Shown here: positions 39,227 through 48,031 of the stretch, piece by piece | Layout: each line of letters opens with the position of its first letter | Position numbering within the stretch: the first letter of the stretch is position 1 | From: Candidatus Zipacnadum vermilionense | GTDB taxonomy: Bacteria > Armatimonadota > Zipacnadia > Zipacnadales > Zipacnadaceae | DNA: 64,000 nucleotides | Direction: 5' to 3' | Assembly (NCBI GenBank): GCA_029821755.1 | Contig: JALGSV010000013.1 | Span: 1-64,000, forward strand | The notes under the pieces: model-generated | The model's input: only the letters and a program-made list of their open reading frames with translations | Databases searched by the model: none | Told to the model about the DNA's origin: nothing | Position numbers and translations under genes: made by a program

Positions 39227-42200
39227 TCACTCCAACGTCAACGTCCCAGCCTTGGTCAGCGTCCGGCCTTGCCAGGTGAAGCTCGTGCCCTCCACCAGCG
39301 TCATCCACGTCTCTCCCTCCATGTACCGCACCGCCCCCACGCGCCCGACGAACTTCGTCCCCTGGGCCTCGTAGGTGAAGGGCTCCTCCGACATGAACAC
39401 CAGGTCCACTCCCCGCTGGTGCTCCAGGCGCAGGCCCTTCCCCCCGGCCAGGGCCGTGACCGTCGGCATCGCTTGGTCGGGATAGCGCGGGTACAGGACG
39501 GTCAGAAAACGTGTGGTGAGCGCCCCACCTGCATGCGATACCATACGGTATCCGTCGGCCGTCGGTAGGGCCAGCCATAGCTCCAGGCTATTCGGGGTCC
39601 AGGCCGCCGCGTAGATGCCGTTCATCTGACCCCCCAGGTTCCGCACCTCCTGGCCGTCCACCGCCGCCCACACATGGGCCACGCTATCCCGCCCCACTGA
39701 CGCCAAATGCCGTCCATCAGGCGAGAACGCCACCCGCACCATATTCCCATGCGCTCGATCGGCGCGCCACAGGTACTGCACCCGGTCGATCGTCCCGACC
39801 GCTCCGGCTGGAACGGTGGCGTCCCACACCGTCACCTTCGCATCATTCCAGGTGGCGTTCGGCAGTCCGCCCACCGCCAGTCGGCTCCCATCCGGCGAGA
39901 AATCCACCGAGTATCACCCGTCCTCCCAGTCCTTCCCCGCCCCCAGACCCAGCAGCAGCTTACCCTCGGCGATATCCCACACCGTCGCCCGTGTCTGCCC
40001 CGCTGCTGCCACCCGTCTTCCGTCCGGCGAAAAGGCCACTCCCGTCAACTTCCCTGACCCTGCCTCCTGCGCAAGCAATTCATCCCCTATCTCCGCCGCC
40101 CATACCCGCACCATCCCGTCGCCCGAGTCCGCCTCGGCCAGCTTGCTGCCGTCCGCGGAGAAGACCAGCCCCATCGCCCACCCCACCGGCGCCTCCCACA
40201 GCTTCTCCCCGGTCGCCACCTTCCACACCAGCACCTTCCCCCGATGCCCACCCGCCACCAGGCTCCCGTCCGGCGACACCGCCACCGAGAACAGCAGGTC
40301 TGTCGTCGGTCCCCACGTCCCCACCAGCTTCCCCGTGGCTCGCTCCCACAGCTTCACCGTGTAATCGGTAGCTATCACCTTCCCGTCCGGCCCGTTGGCG
40401 CCCCCCCCCCCGTCACCAAGTACTTCGAGTCGGCCGAGAAGCCCATCGAGTAAATTGGCGCCTCATGCGGCTTATCCACCGTGCGCTCCACTCCTCCCGG
40501 CCAGGACTTCGGCGCCGCATGCAGTAGCGAGTGCCCCTTCACCCCCCATACTCCCGTGTACGCCTTCTCTACCATCCCCTCCTCCACCCACATGTCCAGG
40601 TCGGTCGGCGCCACGAAGATCACCTCCATGGCCACCCCCAATCCCGGGTCCGGGAACCCCGGAAAGCTCACATACCCCGCCTTCCCCTGCGGGTTCAGCG
40701 TCGGCAGCGGCGAATGCACGTCCAGGTTCCACTCGGGACAATGCGGCCCCACCGTCGTCTCCTGGATGACGAAGTATTCCGGTCCCGCCGGGTCCTTCGC
40801 TTTCATCAGCAGGCACAGGCGGTCGTAGCTGTTCTCCATCCCCCCGGCCTGCGCCCCGGTTGACACCCGCGGAACCCGCGCGTGGCCATAGTCCACCGTC
40901 TCCAGTGACTGGAACGCCTGCCACTTTCCCCGGACCGCCCCATCGTTGGTCGGGCCACGGAAAGTAATCAGGTTGTGGTGCCGCGCCGTGCGCTGGCTGA
41001 TCCGGTCCGCCGCGTCCGTCTTCTCGGGATCGCAGAAGGTGCACGCCGGGTCCCGGCTGTACAGGTTCAGCCCATCCCCGGCCAGCAGCACCCCTTTCGC
41101 GAACATGTGGAACGATCCCTCATCCGCCTCATGGTGCCACTCCACCCGCCCATTCTTGAGCAGGAAGTAGGTCTCCTTCCCCGTCTCCCAGTGATTGCGG
41201 AAGACAAACCCGTAGTCGTCCCACGCCTGGCTGGTCAGCACTGGCGCCTCCGCCGGGGCCGCCGGGTCGGACAGGAACAGGTTGAGCGGCAGCCGGTTAT
41301 GGTACGCCGTAGCCTGCCCGTTCTGCAACCACGCCCATTGCGACCAGCGGCTGAGCTGGGGATCAGACTTCTCGTAGAGGGCCTGGTTCCACGCGAAGTG
41401 CCCGAAGTAGCGGTACCCCGCCCCCGGATGGTGCCCGATCGGCGGGATCATCCGGTTGCCGTGGAAAGTGGCATCGGGCGGCGTGAGTATCTCGATCAGG
41501 AACCGCGCCGCCTTCTGCCGCTGTGACTCCTTGGTGTAGTCGGCATAGCCATTCCGCTGCAGGGCCGTGGTCAACAGCATCGTGTTCTGCCACCAGAACG
41601 GGTAGTAGTTGGACAGGTTTTCCAGGTACACCCCATCCGGGCTAACGGTAGTCGCTACCTCCTCGTCCATCTCCGACTGGGCGAACTTCCGCCACTCCTC
41701 CGCTGCCGGATGCCCCGCGAAGAACACTCCCGCTAGCCCCAGCCCGCTCCACCGGCAGGAGTTGAAGTTGCCGAACGCCGCTAGCTTCCCCGGCGCGTAG
41801 TCGCTGTACCAGTTGTCCTCATCCCGCAGGATGTAGCCCAGTGCCAGAGCATAGTGCGTCCAGCGCTCCCTCTCCTCCGGCGGCAGCGCCCCCCACAGCA
41901 CATCGGCGTACAGCAGCGCCACCCGCATGTGCTGCCCGGTCGTCAGCACGTACACCGACGACGGATACCCCAGCGCCATCTGCTCTTTTACGGTATTCGT
42001 CGCGTCCCCCAAGTCCCAGTCCGACCGGATTCCCTGCGGGTTGTTGAAGCGGAACAGGTCCTTTACCTGTCCCGTCCGCAGCCACTCCAGCGCCTGCGTA
42101 TCCATCAGCGACACCCGGAAGCTCTCGTACTTCGGGTCGGTCTCGAACCGTTGCTTCGCCTCCGGCCCGAAGAACATCCGCGGATGCTCCTCCGTATTCG

Positions 42201-43491
42201 CGTCGTAGTCCAACACCCAGTCCTTCACCTTGTTCAGCGGGAAGTCGCACCACTTGTTCCGCAGCGCCCACAGGTAGCACGACTCCGGCGTGATCCGCGG
42301 CGCCCATCCCGTCTTCCCGCCCCACCAAATGAGGTAGCTGGGCTTGGTGGTAGCCTGCACCTGCTCCGGCGTCAGCACCGCCTTGGCCTTGCTGGTCAGC
42401 ACCAGCAACCAGTGCCTCTCCCCCACCGACATGTTGAGCTGCATCTCCTGCTTCATCACCGGGTCGCTGCCGAAGGTCACGTACCCCCCTCGCCACCGCC
42501 CGGTGCGCACTGGCACCACCCCCACCACATCGTTCTTACCGACGTCGGTGGAGTACATCCCTCCCCACCCGCCCCCCGACCAGCACGATCCCGCCCTCTT
42601 CCCCACCACGGTCGCATACGTTGCATGAGCAATCACCGGCCGCGACCTAATGCTCCGCGCAAACACCCCGTACTCCAAGTGCCGATCAGGCAGCAGATCG
42701 CCCAAGTTCAGAATCTGCATGTTCTGCCGGACCTCACGGTCCCACCCCAGCCCGTTCTGCCCGTACTCCGACACTTCGCAGAAGTCCCGGCCCGGGAAGA
42801 CGCGAATCCGCATCTCATACGTGCCGCCTCCGGCAAAGGTCAGCGCCTCCCGGTACGTTCGCCACAGAGGCCCCTCCTCGCTGACCGTCAGCGAGTGGCT
42901 CATGACCTTCACCTCCGCTGGCATCGCCCCGCTCCCCCGCCACACCCCATCCACACCACGGTACCCTTGCAGTATCCCCGGCAGCTCCCCCGCCGCCCGC
43001 GGTGAATCGTACGTCTCGCTCCCTCCCCACAGCCGCAGTCCTAGCGCCCCATTCTCCACCTCCACCACCGCTTGCTCCAAGTCCGTATGGCTCACCCCCA
43101 GCGCCGGGAACTCCGCGGCCGCAAACCCAGCCCCCGGATCATGGTACAGCACCAACCTTCGAGTCCCCCCCGCCGGCAGCTCGTCGAGCCAGAACGACAC
43201 CGTACCCTTACTCAGCCGCGTTACCGTCCCTTCCGTCTCGGAAAGCTGAAACGCCACGAGCCGGTCCCGGTCCGCATCATACAGCCGCAGACTCTCCACG
43301 CTGGCCCCTTCCGGGAAGCTCACGCGGTAGCTGAGCAGCTCGTCCGAGTAGCTGCGGTCGAGGTACTCCTTCAGGAGGAACTCCTCCTGCCCCGCCCGCG
43401 CCTTCCCGTCCTCAAACACCGGCGCCCCCAGCACCCGCGCCCCCACCAGGGCCAGTACTATAATCCCACAAACACGGCTAAGCTTGCTCAT
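39227..43491 (-). pseudogene. Secreted heparinase II/III-like lyase with WD40 propeller, disrupted twice
   Basis: The ATG at 43491 follows AGGAGGAG. A signal peptide (VCGIIVLALVGARVLG) leads into about 1,000 residues. An N-terminal beta domain comes first, then helical segments of an alpha/alpha toroid (ALALGYILRDEDNWYSDY, NLSNYYPFWWQNTMLL), then a lyase-like beta-sandwich with NGRVEWHHEADEGSFHMFAKG, the His/Asp pattern of heparinase II/III proteins. At a run of 11 C (40401-40411; G11 on the coding strand) the frame is lost and the chain ends at 40375. The lost part continues in another frame (40378 to 39914) as WD40-type blades (FSADGSKLA, FSPDGRRVA, VWKVATGEKLWE), stops at an in-frame TGA (39914-39916), and then resumes in the same frame to 39227 (FSPDGSRLAVGG, FSPDGRHLAS). 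Repaired, it would be about 1,420 residues. Confidence 0.8.
40401..40411. repeat. 11-base homopolymer at the frameshift in the lyase-WD40 gene
   Basis: Eleven consecutive C on the plus strand (G on the coding strand). Nine or twelve bases would keep the lyase and propeller parts in one frame. Such tracts slip easily in replication and in sequencing. Confidence 0.95.
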
Positions 43492-43632: not shown

Positions 43633-44457
43633 CTAACGGAGGTGTTGGAGCAGCGCCAGTTGGGGAGCGAGATCCTCAGGCGCGCCGAAGGTCTCGAGCG
43701 TGAGGACCTCGCAGCGCGGGAACGAGGGGAGCAGCGCTGCGAACTCGTCTACCTCCTCGGCCGTGATCCGCAGGTGCGCATCTATCCACATGCCCTGCTC
43801 CTGCCGGGCCCGCGAGAGGTGCACTTGGCGGACGGCCTCCAGGGGCAAGGCGGCAAGATAGTCTGCCCAGGGAATTCCCAGATTTCCGGCGCTAACCCGA
43901 GCGTGCGCGAGATCGAGCAGCAGCGGGCAGCCGGCGGCGGCAAGCAGGTCGGTGATGAACTCAGGCTCGCAGACGTGTTCGTAGGCCCCGCTGATCTCGG
44001 GCGGCATGTAATCCAGGTTCTCCAGCAGCAACGGCAGTCCGGGGAACAGGGAGCGCAAGTGGGTGAGATTGTCGAGAATCCGGCCGCGCGTCTCGGTGCG
44101 GGAGAGCGTGGGGCCGTCGGCGAGGGTGGGGCGGCCCTGGCCGAGGACTACTAGGCGGTCCGCGCTGAAACCCAGGTGCAGGGAGACCCAGTGCGGCTGC
44201 AGTCGGTCCACCGCGCGGGAGATGCGCCCGTCAGACAGTATCTCTGGGAAGCCCAGACTTCCCAAGTTCAGGATAGTGTCCTCGCCGGCCACGTGGTGGT
44301 ATTGCAGGTGCATCAGCGCCGGCTGCGGGCAGGGCGGATCGTCGGGAGCGGGGAGGCGCTTGTACTCGCAGTAGTCGTACAGCTCCGCCAGCGCAGAGTC
44401 GGCGAAAGGCCAGGCCTGCTGGGCCAGGGCGAGGCGTTGGGTGGGCAGGCTAGTCAT
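43633..44457 (-). CDS. DUF692/UPF0276 (MNIO-like) TIM-barrel protein
   Basis: 274 residues from ATG 44457. DUF692 proteins are TIM barrels binding two or three iron atoms; characterised members (MbnB, TglH) oxidatively modify Cys or Asp in ribosomal peptides. The expected metal-site pattern can be seen: SLHLG (His94), LLLENLDY (Glu146), LLLDLAHARVSAGNLG (Asp182, His185), QVHLSRA (His213), WIDAH (Asp226, His228) and LTLETFG (Glu255). The length is normal. There is no obvious precursor peptide, RRE or partner protein (DUF2063) next to it. Instead an aldolase homologue is divergent, followed by lyxose isomerase. A xylose-isomerase-like sugar role is the main alternative. Confidence 0.65.
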   Translation of the reverse strand: MTSLPTQRLALAQQAWPFADSALAELYDYCEYKRLPAPDDPPCPQPALMHLQYHHVAGEDTILNLGSLGFPEILSDGRISRAVDRLQPHWVSLHLGFSADRLVVLGQGRPTLADGPTLSRTETRGRILDNLTHLRSLFPGLPLLLENLDYMPPEISGAYEHVCEPEFITDLLAAAGCPLLLDLAHARVSAGNLGIPWADYLAALPLEAVRQVHLSRARQEQGMWIDAHLRITAEEVDEFAALLPSFPRCEVLTLETFGAPEDLAPQLALLQHLR

Positions 44458-44692
44458 CCGGCGTCCCGGTCCTGTCCGGTTGACTGGCGCGGCATCGCCG
44501 CCGCGATCGTGGAGTAAGAGTGACGGGCAGGGAGTGAATGGTGCATGGCTGCCGAAGGATTTCGACGCCGGGCCGAGAATTCCTTGCGCCAACGGACGCG
44601 GCGCGTCCGCTTCCCTCACTCGCCAGGCAGGAGAACCATCCCATCGGGTTGAATTATCACTGCAATCCCATCCCGACCGAGGTGCTGAGTCC
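44458..44692. other. Divergent intergenic region
   Basis: 235 bp between the DUF692 gene and the aldolase homologue. Both strands carry 60-odd-codon open frames but without ribosome sites or protein-like composition. No confident promoter pair is found. Confidence 0.4.
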
Positions 44693-45562
44693 ATGCCCCT
44701 TATGCCCTTCTCCCAACTGATGTCCGCCGCCGCTCGGGGCCGCTACGCCGTGGCCTACTTCGAGCCGTGGGACGAGGCTAGCCTGCTGGCCGTTATCCGC
44801 GGCGCCGAGCAGGCCGACTCACCCCTCATGGTGGGCCTGAGCGGCATCTACCTGCCGTCCTTCCTCCACGGGGACCGCCGCTACTTCCCCGCCCTCGCCG
44901 CGGCCGGGCGACTGGCCGCCGAGCAGGCCCGCGTCCCCGTTTCCTTCCTGTTCAACGAGACTCCTTACTGGGACTGGGCCGTAGCCTCTGTGGACCTCGG
45001 CTTCAACGTTGTTATGTACAGCAACCCCGACGACGACCCGGAGACCCACGCGGTGCGAACCGCCGAACTGGTCCGTACCGCAGCGGCGCGCGGGGTAGAG
45101 GTGGAGTCTGAGCTGGGCTCTCTGTTCGACGAAGCCGGAGACAACACCGACCCGGAGGCCGCCGCGGCGTTCGTTTTGCGCACCGGCGTCCATGCCCTGG
45201 GGGTCACCGTGGGCAACCGACACCTGGCGAGCGGAACCTACCACCTGGACCTAGGCCTGATCGCCCGCCTGGCCGAGGCCGTGCCGATCCCGCTAGTGCT
45301 ACACGGCGGGAGCGGGGCCGCGGACGACGAGCTACGCGAGGCGGTGGCGCGGGGCGTCCGCCAGGTCAGCTACGGCACCGCCCAGCGCCTGGCCTTCCTG
45401 GAGCGTCTGAGCGCTTCCCTGGCCCGCGACTGGCGCGCTCTGGACCCTCATGAGCTGCTCGGCACCGGCCTCCCCGATGATCTCCTGCGCCCCGGCTACG
45501 AGGCGGTCAGCGCCTTGGTGGAGGAAAAGTGCGCCCTGCTAGGGTCTGCGGGGAAGGCGTAG
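44693..45562 (+). CDS. Class II aldolase-like protein with altered catalytic residues
   Basis: 289 residues from ATG 44693. The fold is that of class II fructose/tagatose-bisphosphate aldolases (FbaA/KbaY): SAAARGRYAVAYF, VESELGSL (the EAELG motif), HALGVTVGNRH with His177, and VLHGGSGAADDELREAVARGVRQVSYGT with His204. Those two His are the usual second and third zinc ligands. The normal LxLDH motif (catalytic Asp plus first zinc ligand His) is replaced: by position it is FLFNET, with Asn88 and Glu89. The MIDGS segment is MYSNP. It may still bind metal through Glu but should not be a standard aldolase. It lies 28 bp upstream of lyxose isomerase, as one unit. Confidence 0.75.
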   Translation: MPLMPFSQLMSAAARGRYAVAYFEPWDEASLLAVIRGAEQADSPLMVGLSGIYLPSFLHGDRRYFPALAAAGRLAAEQARVPVSFLFNETPYWDWAVASVDLGFNVVMYSNPDDDPETHAVRTAELVRTAAARGVEVESELGSLFDEAGDNTDPEAAAAFVLRTGVHALGVTVGNRHLASGTYHLDLGLIARLAEAVPIPLVLHGGSGAADDELREAVARGVRQVSYGTAQRLAFLERLSASLARDWRALDPHELLGTGLPDDLLRPGYEAVSALVEEKCALLGSAGKA

Positions 45563-45590
45563 GCGTACGGCCGGCATCGAGGTGACATGA

Positions 45591-46262
45591 ATGACCCGCT
45601 CCGAAGTCAACCAGATCATCCGCGAGGGACTCGATTTCTGCCGGCGGATGAGCTTCCACTTGCCGCCCTTTGCCCTGTGGACGCCGGAGGACTGGGCCGC
45701 GCGCGGGCATGAGTGCGACGAGATCCGCGACAACATGCTCGGCTGGGATGTCACGGATTTCGGCCTGGGGGATTTCTCGCGGCATGGCCTATTGGTCTTC
45801 ACTATCCGCAACGGCAACGCCCAGCTCCCGCAGTACCTCAAGCCCTACGCGGAGAAGCTGCTCATCATTCGCGAGCGGCAGGTCACGCCGCTGCACTTCC
45901 ACTACAGCAAGATGGAGGACATCATCAACCGCGGCGGCGGCGAGCTGGTCCTGCAGGTATACAACGCCACCGAGGACTATCAGCTCGCCGACACCCCCGT
46001 GCAAGTCAACCTGGACGGTTGCGTCGCCACCGTGGACGCGGGCGCCCGACTGCGCCTGGCACCGGGCGCGAGCATTACCCTCCCGACGCACATGTACCAT
46101 CAGTTCTGGGCGGAGGGGGAGATGGTCCTGTGCGGGGAGGTCTCCGCGGTGAACGATGACAACGTGGACAACCACTTCTTGGGGCAGGTGGGGCGCTTCC
46201 CGGAGATAGAGGAAGACGAGTCGCCGCTCCACTTACTGTGTACGGAGTATCCGCAGGCATGA
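45591..46262 (+). CDS. D-lyxose ketol-isomerase (cupin type)
   Basis: 223 residues from ATG 45591, after GAGGTGA. Cupin-fold sugar isomerase that interconverts D-lyxose with D-xylulose and often D-mannose with D-fructose. The metal site is clear: His102 and His104 in TPLHFHYSKMEDI, Glu109, and His167 or His170 in THMYHQFWAEGE. FGLGDFSRHGLLVFTIRNG is a typical family stretch. It fits with the beta-mannosidase and PfkB kinase in this window as part of mannose or lyxose use. Confidence 0.88.
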   Translation: MTRSEVNQIIREGLDFCRRMSFHLPPFALWTPEDWAARGHECDEIRDNMLGWDVTDFGLGDFSRHGLLVFTIRNGNAQLPQYLKPYAEKLLIIRERQVTPLHFHYSKMEDIINRGGGELVLQVYNATEDYQLADTPVQVNLDGCVATVDAGARLRLAPGASITLPTHMYHQFWAEGEMVLCGEVSAVNDDNVDNHFLGQVGRFPEIEEDESPLHLLCTEYPQA

Positions 46263-46418: not shown

Positions 46419-47363
46419 CTACCACTTCCCCGGCTCCTGCCGCTCCAGCAGCTCGATTACCTGGGTATACCCGCGAACCCCGGCGGTGGTCCCCGGCGCG
46501 GTGGTGGCGATCCCGCCCAGGGCGTTAGCGAAGCGTGTGGTCCGCTCCAGGTCCCAGCCCTGTAAGTGTCCGTACAGGAAGCCCGCCACGAAGGCATCCC
46601 CCGCCCCGCTGCCGTCGACCACCTCCACCGGATAGGCCGGCAGGCGCAGTTCCTCCTGCGCCGTGCGAACGTAGCTCCCCTCCGGTCCCATCTTCAGGCC
46701 CACCAGCTTCGCGCCGGCGTCCAGCAGGGCTTGCGCAATGTCCTCCGGGCGAGACAGGCCGGTGAGCTTCTCGGCCTCGGGGAGGCTGGGGAGGAAGAGG
46801 TCCGTGTGCGGCAGCAGCGGGCCCACGGCGGTCATCCAGCGGCCGGTGTCGTCCCAGGCAGTGTCCACGCACGTGGTCACGCCGGCGGCCTGGGCCTCGG
46901 CGAGGATCCGGGCCTGCGGCTCGCCGTCGAAGCCGGGCATGAGCAGCACCCCGGCCAGGTGCAGCAGCCGGGCCGACTTGATCGCCGCCATGTCCAGCGC
47001 GGCGGGATCGATGTGGCCGTCGGCGCCGAAGCAATGGATGTAGGTCCGCTCGCCCTCGCTATCGATGAGGATAAGCGTAGTGGAGGTCCCGGCGGTGGCG
47101 GTGCGTTGAATCCCGCCGACCTCGATCCCGTCCTGGCGCAGCCAATCCAGCACCAGGTCCCCGAATCCGTCCTGCCCCACGCAGCCCTGCACCTCTACCG
47201 ATACCCCCAGCCGGGCCAGGCTGGTCGCCGTATTGGAGGCGCAACCGCCGAGGCCGATCCCTGTCTCCCCTACCACCCCCAGCCGCCCCCGCTCCGGCCA
47301 GTCATCCACCGGCCGGGCCCAGACATCCGCGACCACAATTCCGAGACAGACGACATCGGCCAT
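46419..47363 (-). CDS. PfkB-family carbohydrate kinase
   Basis: 314 residues from ATG 47363, preceded by CAGGAG. Ribokinase-like fold: LGGCASNTATSLARLG (substrate-binding Gly/Asn region), GTSTTLILIDSEGERTYI, DTAWDDTGRW, and the C-terminal signature VDGSGAGDAFVAGFLYG with the catalytic Asp in GAGDAF. The substrate cannot be read from sequence. Candidates given the context are fructose, xylulose-type ketoses or keto-sugars. It follows a DUF1080 gene by 41 bp on the same strand. Confidence 0.85.
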   Translation of the reverse strand: MADVVCLGIVVADVWARPVDDWPERGRLGVVGETGIGLGGCASNTATSLARLGVSVEVQGCVGQDGFGDLVLDWLRQDGIEVGGIQRTATAGTSTTLILIDSEGERTYIHCFGADGHIDPAALDMAAIKSARLLHLAGVLLMPGFDGEPQARILAEAQAAGVTTCVDTAWDDTGRWMTAVGPLLPHTDLFLPSLPEAEKLTGLSRPEDIAQALLDAGAKLVGLKMGPEGSYVRTAQEELRLPAYPVEVVDGSGAGDAFVAGFLYGHLQGWDLERTTRFANALGGIATTAPGTTAGVRGYTQVIELLERQEPGKW

Positions 47364-47404
47364 AGGTAAGACACTCCTGGGGAACACCAGTATATGGAAC
47401 GGCC

Positions 47405-48031
47405 TCAGTGCGGATCGTACGTGTCGGAGCCCTGCTGGGGCAGGTGGACTAGCCAGATGTTGCGGTAGCTGACCAGGTCACCATGGTCCTGCAGGAGCAG
47501 GGGGCCGGGTTGGCCCAAGTCCTCGTCCAAGGCACCGCCGGTGGGACCGAGGAGCTCCACGTTGTTGTGGATGACCTGGTCGTTCTGCAAGACGGTCACC
47601 CGGGCCTGGCTGAGGACCTGGCCGGAATCGTCCACGCGGGCGGCGCGGAAGATGAGGTCGTAGGTCTGCCACTCCCGGGCGGGCTTGCAGACGTTGACCA
47701 GCGGGGCGAACTGGTTGTAGATGGCGCCGCAGTCACCCAGGCCGGGGACCTCCCAGCCGTAGGAGTCTAGCACCTGGATCTCGTAGCGGCCCTGCAGGAA
47801 CACGCCGCTGTTGCCCTTAGCCTGGCCGGTCTTATCGGGCATATCCGGCTCGCGCCACTCCACATGCACCCAGGCGTCGGTGAACTGCTCGGCGCTGACG
47901 ATGTTGCCGGAGGTAACGGTCATGCAGCCGTCAGCGATCTCCCAGATAGCGGCCTGGCCGTCAACCTGGCGCCAGCCGTCAAGCGAGGTGCCGTCAAAGA
48001 GCGTGATAGCGTTAGCGGGGCGATGAGACAT
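47405..48031 (-). CDS. DUF1080 (3-keto-disaccharide hydrolase-like) protein
   Basis: 208 residues from ATG 48031, after AAGGAGG. A concanavalin-like beta-sandwich typical of DUF1080: FDGTSLDGWRQVDGQAAIWEIADGCM at the start, then EWREPD, KGNSGVFLQGRYEIQVLDSYG and REWQTYDLIFRAARVD. No signal peptide is seen, unlike many relatives. Some DUF1080 members split 3-keto-glycosides made by Gfo/Idh/MocA dehydrogenases, and a broken gene of that family is at 10659. It is transcribed with the PfkB kinase. Confidence 0.85.
   Translation of the reverse strand: MSHRPANAITLFDGTSLDGWRQVDGQAAIWEIADGCMTVTSGNIVSAEQFTDAWVHVEWREPDMPDKTGQAKGNSGVFLQGRYEIQVLDSYGWEVPGLGDCGAIYNQFAPLVNVCKPAREWQTYDLIFRAARVDDSGQVLSQARVTVLQNDQVIHNNVELLGPTGGALDEDLGQPGPLLLQDHGDLVSYRNIWLVHLPQQGSDTYDPH

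Follow-up and report, generated by a model that had tools for sequence, protein, structure and literature searches.

A DUF692 (PF05114) protein from Armatimonadota with histidine in place of asparagine at its predicted third metal site

The PF05114 proteins with a known function have peptide substrates, and a survey of MNIO enzymes gathered about 14,000 proteins by this single Pfam signature and sought RiPP precursors and partner proteins beside them (PMC12452194). In TglH, Fe1 and Fe2 are bound by H71, H107, E151, D184, H216 and E258, and Fe3 by D184, N187, D229 and H231, while the Asp following the last Glu has been proposed as the general base in MbnB (PMC10880893). In their active form, MbnB and HvfB leave site 3 unoccupied and hold two irons in a mixed-valent centre; the site-3 Asn of HvfB is essential, N175A being inactive, and the role of this site is puzzling in both enzymes (PMC13419390). 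CbiR, a cobamide-remodelling phosphodiesterase of the same superfamily, shows that this fold can harbour an O2-sensitive hydrolase (PMC7733943).

Here we describe P0001, a PF05114 protein encoded in a 64,000-nucleotide stretch of contig JALGSV010000013.1 (the window) from an Armatimonadota genome (115 contigs, 95% complete). A sequence-only reading had taken it for an MNIO-like enzyme in a sugar cluster without a peptide substrate. The PF05114 membership, the iron-site residues and the lack of a detected peptide partner held up in our analysis, but membership of the sugar cluster did not. A non-peptide role is plausible, and the His/Asn difference described below makes it testable. If a branch without RiPP context and with endonuclease IV-type ligands holds, part of PF05114 has been mis-described as peptide oxidases, and this natural difference would provide a testable hydrolase-to-oxidase route and a probe of site 3.

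The DUF692 gene and its neighbours

The genes at the locus are as follows.

43633 to 44457, minus strand: DUF692/PF05114 protein (P0001), 274 aa, assigned by profile match, ligands and AlphaFold2 model
44458 to 44692, no strand: intergenic stretch of ~235 bp separating the DUF692 and aldolase-like genes, which are divergent, short frames inspected
44693 to 45562, plus strand: class II aldolase-like protein (PF01116) with Asn88-Glu89 for the catalytic Asp and zinc-binding His, considered a neighbour outside the DUF692 function
45591 to 46262, plus strand: D-lyxose isomerase family protein (PF07385), its pairing with the aldolase conserved in G014 and G010
46419 to 47387, minus strand: PfkB-family sugar kinase (PF00294), 77% identical at the same place in G014 and G013
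47405 to 48031, minus strand: DUF1080 / 3-keto-disaccharide hydrolase family protein (PF06439), by profile match

The open frame of P0001 extends back to 44694, but homology begins after the ATG at 44457, and the gene was therefore assigned to 43633-44457; residue numbers used here include one Arg codon ahead of this Met. Its codon-position GC is 0.74/0.45/0.84, a pattern also shown by the neighbouring genes, and the frame is real and coding. Contamination was considered and rejected, since a congeneric genome carries these neighbouring genes at 74-80% identity. P0001 matched PF05114 (MbnB/TglH/ChrH) with 67.2 bits (E 1.7e-18), over residues 78-239 only, against a Pfam cut-off of 25 bits, which it thus exceeds; none of the NCBIfam MNIO equivalog cut-offs was reached, the best scores being 65 bits against 310 for BufB and 62 against 400 for ApyH. 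The AlphaFold2 model (pLDDT 85, pTM 0.87) retrieved MbnB and TglH as best Foldseek matches (~1e-11), with endonuclease IV at 3e-8 and ketose 3-epimerases (D-allulose, D-tagatose) at ~1e-6. The DUF692 assignment made from sequence is confirmed. Up to E 0.1, P0001 matched neither TIGR00587 and nfo-related models nor the xylose-isomerase-like family PF01261 (AP_endonuc_2), and no match to the CbiR model was found. The true Nfo of the host is encoded on another contig.

The identities that the sequence-only reading gave to the four neighbours agree with their Pfam families, and so does its observation of a changed aldolase active site, since the Asp-His of the HLDHG motif is replaced by Asn88-Glu89 in all eight Armatimonadota homologues. 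G014, of the same genus, and G010, of the same family, both carry the aldolase and lyxose isomerase pair with 70-80% identity; there, the aldolase is followed by thiamine-dependent dehydrogenase E1-beta and E1-alpha genes and no DUF692 gene is present; in the window, the divergent DUF692 gene occupies the place of those E1 genes. The aldolase module with E1 genes recurs, together with E2, in other Armatimonadota families. No PF05114 gene was found in the 14 other genomes of the GTDB family, and neighbour clustering of DUF692 relatives revealed no shared neighbours beyond lineage synteny; likewise, a Pfam tally of 115 neighbours gave no theme among the 25 families listed, a list in which a single occurrence could be missed. 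The DUF692-aldolase-lyxose isomerase neighbourhood, whose conservation had been proposed as a check on the sugar link, was thus not conserved in the sister genomes or around relatives, the outcome named beforehand as refuting, and the link is not supported. The simplest reading is that the DUF692 gene lies beside, and not within, the sugar module, and would be a recent lineage-specific acquisition.

Two further observations concern this region and the sugar genes. Genes of the Asn-Glu aldolase-like subfamily (44693-45562 on the plus strand, and L124-L130) recur across Armatimonadota in a module with those for PfkB, E1-alpha, E1-beta, E2 and D-lyxose isomerase, which may represent a sugar pathway not yet described. 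The host itself carries E1-alpha and E1-beta away from the aldolase module (L182, contig C17, 93.6-95.6 kb), 55-60% identical to those of G014 and preceded by a lipoyl-domain E2-like ORF. Separately, a heparinase II/III-like protein at 39227-43491 on the minus strand runs at its C-terminus into WD40 repeats, which carry on in two other frames (39914-40378 and 39227-39907); this suggests either that a single long gene has suffered frameshifts or that the assembly contains errors here.

Predicted metal ligands and D-x-x-H relatives

By alignment, the predicted metal ligands of P0001 are H51, H95, E147, D183, H186, H214, D227, H229 and E256. Two short stretches of codons are central to the comparison.

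43903 to 43914, minus strand: codons for D183-L-A-H186, D-x-x-N in canonical MNIOs and D-x-x-H in endonuclease IV, by alignment with TglH D184 and N187 (PMC10880893)
43774 to 43782, minus strand: codons for D227-A-H229, the site-3 D-x-H, which most relatives lack or carry at a shifted position, by alignment

All Fe1/Fe2 ligand positions of TglH are kept (H51, H95, E147, D183, H214, E256), as is the D-x-H of site 3, where D227 and H229 correspond to TglH D229 and H231. The site-3 Asn (TglH N187, HvfB N175), on the other hand, is replaced by His186. This Asn is present in 13 of 13 canonical MNIO sequences compared, including MbnB, TglH, the HvfB-like 3BWW and canonical MNIOs of Armatimonadota. 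The claim that all likely metal ligands are present therefore stands for the residues themselves, with a change at site 3 that the sequence-only reading could not see. In addition, the Asp after the last Glu, which gives E-R-D in canonical sequences, is missing in P0001 and its relatives, which have LETFG or LEYGG instead.

In an endonuclease IV from the same phylum, D178-T-A-H181 and D228-R-H230 align with these two stretches, and the remaining ligand positions are likewise filled by H, H, E, H and E; in endonuclease IV these residues are the zinc ligands. Since P0001 combines D-x-x-H with a kept D-x-H, its predicted ligand set equals the nine of endonuclease IV, namely H, H, E, D-x-x-H, H, D-x-H and E. 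A subgroup of six proteins (P0001, L037, L038, L039, L047 and L065) shares all nine residues without exception. Its five members besides P0001 derive from Chloroflexota, from Symbiobacterium (L039) and from a second Armatimonadota genome, G037, the only other genome of the phylum with a subgroup member; L065 is a Thermobaculum protein. In most of the remaining relatives D-x-H is shortened by one residue to D-H or D-S. Relatives also occur in the Bacillaceae (Rossellomorea, Gracilibacillus).

A contig scan of genomes with P0001 alone gave no relatives, and a scan with a four-sequence alignment found 41. Because the search pattern of the latter included LLD[LT]AH, the constancy of H186 in the resulting 43-member set is partly built in, and sets gathered without the motif were used to check it. 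A motif-free profile search of 291 genomes found D-x-x-H in 10 proteins, including the variant LLLDSAH, and D-x-x-N in 8, while LLFDLSH and FLLDIAH were seen in further hits gathered without the pattern. All 43 proteins of the retrieved set matched PF05114; 13 of them also matched AP_endonuc_2 (PF01261), and 6 weakly matched the CbiR model NF041277. Plasmid records yielded only PF05114 proteins with ~30% identity, labelled DUF692 where annotated.

Two genomes (G295 with L047 and G296 with L065) each encode a pair of PF05114 paralogues of the D-x-x-H kind, of which one has D-x-H and the other is of the NYS..CP type (L158 and L156), so that both subtypes coexist. Three candidates, L002-L004, were rejected as a different protein, as judged from the single example read from end to end, L036 of the host (contig C21, 3330-5231, minus strand). 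L036 resembles sialate synthases and carries a xylose-isomerase-like domain (LLENIAPF..CWDLSHAQ) at its C-terminus; L002 and L003 contain similar open frames, weak matches of like length in two other genomes of the family.

Placement relative to MNIOs and endonuclease IV

Profile-profile comparison placed the six-member subgroup between the two enzyme groups, since it matched MNIOs with an E-value of 9e-30 and endonuclease IV with 7e-7, while MNIOs and endonuclease IV matched each other with only 1e-3. In the maximum-likelihood tree, characterised MNIOs formed one clade (99/87), sister to a single Acidobacteria protein (98/94), and P0001 and the other D-x-x-H proteins fell outside it. The branch of P0001 is the longest in the tree, with 1.74 changes per column, and with such a long branch the AU test rejected neither its grouping with canonical MNIOs (p 0.21) nor that with endonuclease IV (p 0.39); a single clade of the six-member subgroup was likewise not rejected (p 0.20). 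The P0001 lineage is thus probably outside the characterised MNIO clade. The check by tree suggested in the sequence-only reading gave a position outside that clade by maximum likelihood, although AU p-values of 0.2-0.4 reject no rival placement. A position among xylose-isomerase-like proteins lacking the iron site, named there as refuting, was not what we found: the site residues are kept and MbnB and TglH are the best matches by fold.

Compared to the MNIOs MbnB, TglH and HvfB, then, P0001 shares the TIM barrel, the Fe1/Fe2 set H/H/E/D/H/E and the site-3 D-x-H, but has His and not Asn at site 3, scores far under the NCBIfam cut-offs and has no partner or precursor that we could find. Compared to endonuclease IV (Nfo), the nine ligand positions match, whereas the overall sequence is far more distant. 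No cobamide genes were seen beside the P0001 gene.

Proposed function and competing explanations

The reading that we favour, tentatively, is that P0001 is a solitary metalloenzyme of the PF05114 superfamily that acts on a non-peptide substrate through an endonuclease IV-like trinuclear site, with hydrolytic or lyase-like chemistry rather than as an O2-dependent peptide oxidase. His186 would hold the third metal permanently, favouring a stable three-metal site, and, much as endonuclease IV or CbiR does, P0001 would employ metal-activated water to break a phosphate ester or a comparable bond in a small soluble substrate, rather than O2 to oxidise a peptide Cys. COX1 (haem-copper oxidase) was present in two of the six subgroup genomes and was not detected in the other four, including that of the host. 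This weakly favours O2-independent chemistry, although the absence is also compatible with cytochrome bd or low-O2 chemistry. The lack of a detected COX1 in the host and the His at site 3 weigh against assuming O2 chemistry. Several results speak against the hydrolytic reading: by sequence and fold P0001 is nearest to oxidative MNIOs and not to hydrolases, the endonuclease IV, CbiR and AP_endonuc_2 models do not match it, the AU tests allow either grouping, the search pattern itself accounts in part for the invariant H186 of the 43-member set, and two subgroup genomes do have COX1.

A wider proposal, which we consider rather doubtful, is that D-x-x-H PF05114 proteins represent a living intermediate between endonuclease IV-type trinuclear hydrolases and MNIOs. 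They would constitute a widespread solitary non-peptide family (Chloroflexota, Bacillota, Armatimonadota) with its own small-molecule substrate, and peptide-oxidising MNIOs would have arisen from them when His was replaced by Asn and the third site was thereby freed.

Among the alternatives to a solitary hydrolase or lyase, the one that survives best, although we think it unlikely, is a non-peptide MNIO that relies on Fe2/Fe3 and O2 to oxidise a small-molecule substrate, possibly an intermediate in the sugar pathway encoded next to it; P0001 could even replace the E1 dehydrogenase genes found at this place in sister genomes. Every Fe1/Fe2 ligand is kept, MNIOs are closest in sequence and fold, and the gene sits, divergent from the aldolase, where the sister genomes have E1-alpha and E1-beta. 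However, relatives never adjoin sugar genes of such kind, sister genomes keep the aldolase module without a DUF692 gene, the host carries E2, E1-alpha and E1-beta elsewhere, and no COX1 was found in it.

The E-D-H-E metal tetrad is common to the xylose-isomerase-like superfamily, and its presence in P0001 (E147/D183/H214/E256), together with the shared fold, the Foldseek matches to D-allulose and D-tagatose 3-epimerases and the adjoining sugar genes, is what a metal-dependent sugar isomerase or epimerase would show. We regard this function as improbable: ketose 3-epimerases, which use one metal against two or three here, rank under MNIOs and endonuclease IV in Foldseek, PF01261 does not match P0001, H51, H95, H186, D227 and H229 would be superfluous for a one-metal epimerase, and the relatives have no sugar neighbours.

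A role in RiPP modification, with precursor and partner encoded at another locus of the genome, would fit the peptide substrates of characterised PF05114 members (PMC12452194), but it appears slightly less probable still. The host genome has no match to the DUF2063 partner (PF09836), of which none above cut-off was found in 15 family genomes, or to the DUF2282 precursor (PF10048), profiles that miss PME-type 2 partners and unrelated precursors. No Cys-rich precursor-like ORF was seen among the short frames of the intergenic stretch at 44458-44692, and no RiPP family recurred beside the relatives among the 25 neighbour families listed. As a positive control, a canonical MNIO of the same phylum (L030; 366 bits against BufB) showed DUF2282, MNIO, DUF2063 and DoxX genes in a row. 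The earlier statement that a peptide substrate is lacking is supported as far as genomic context is concerned. Moreover, the site-3 Asn that is essential in HvfB (PMC13419390) is His in P0001.

Other canonical MNIOs of Armatimonadota (L022-L026 and L029) adjoin membrane proteins with a PDPYEIAYLRGG motif, an arrangement that appears to resemble the TIGR04222-associated systems described for MNIOs.

Least probable of all is a decaying or functionless acquired gene, as might be suspected from the longest branch in the tree and from its occurrence in only one genome of the family, given that the frame is intact with host-like codon use, the structural model is confident and all nine ligands are kept despite that long branch.
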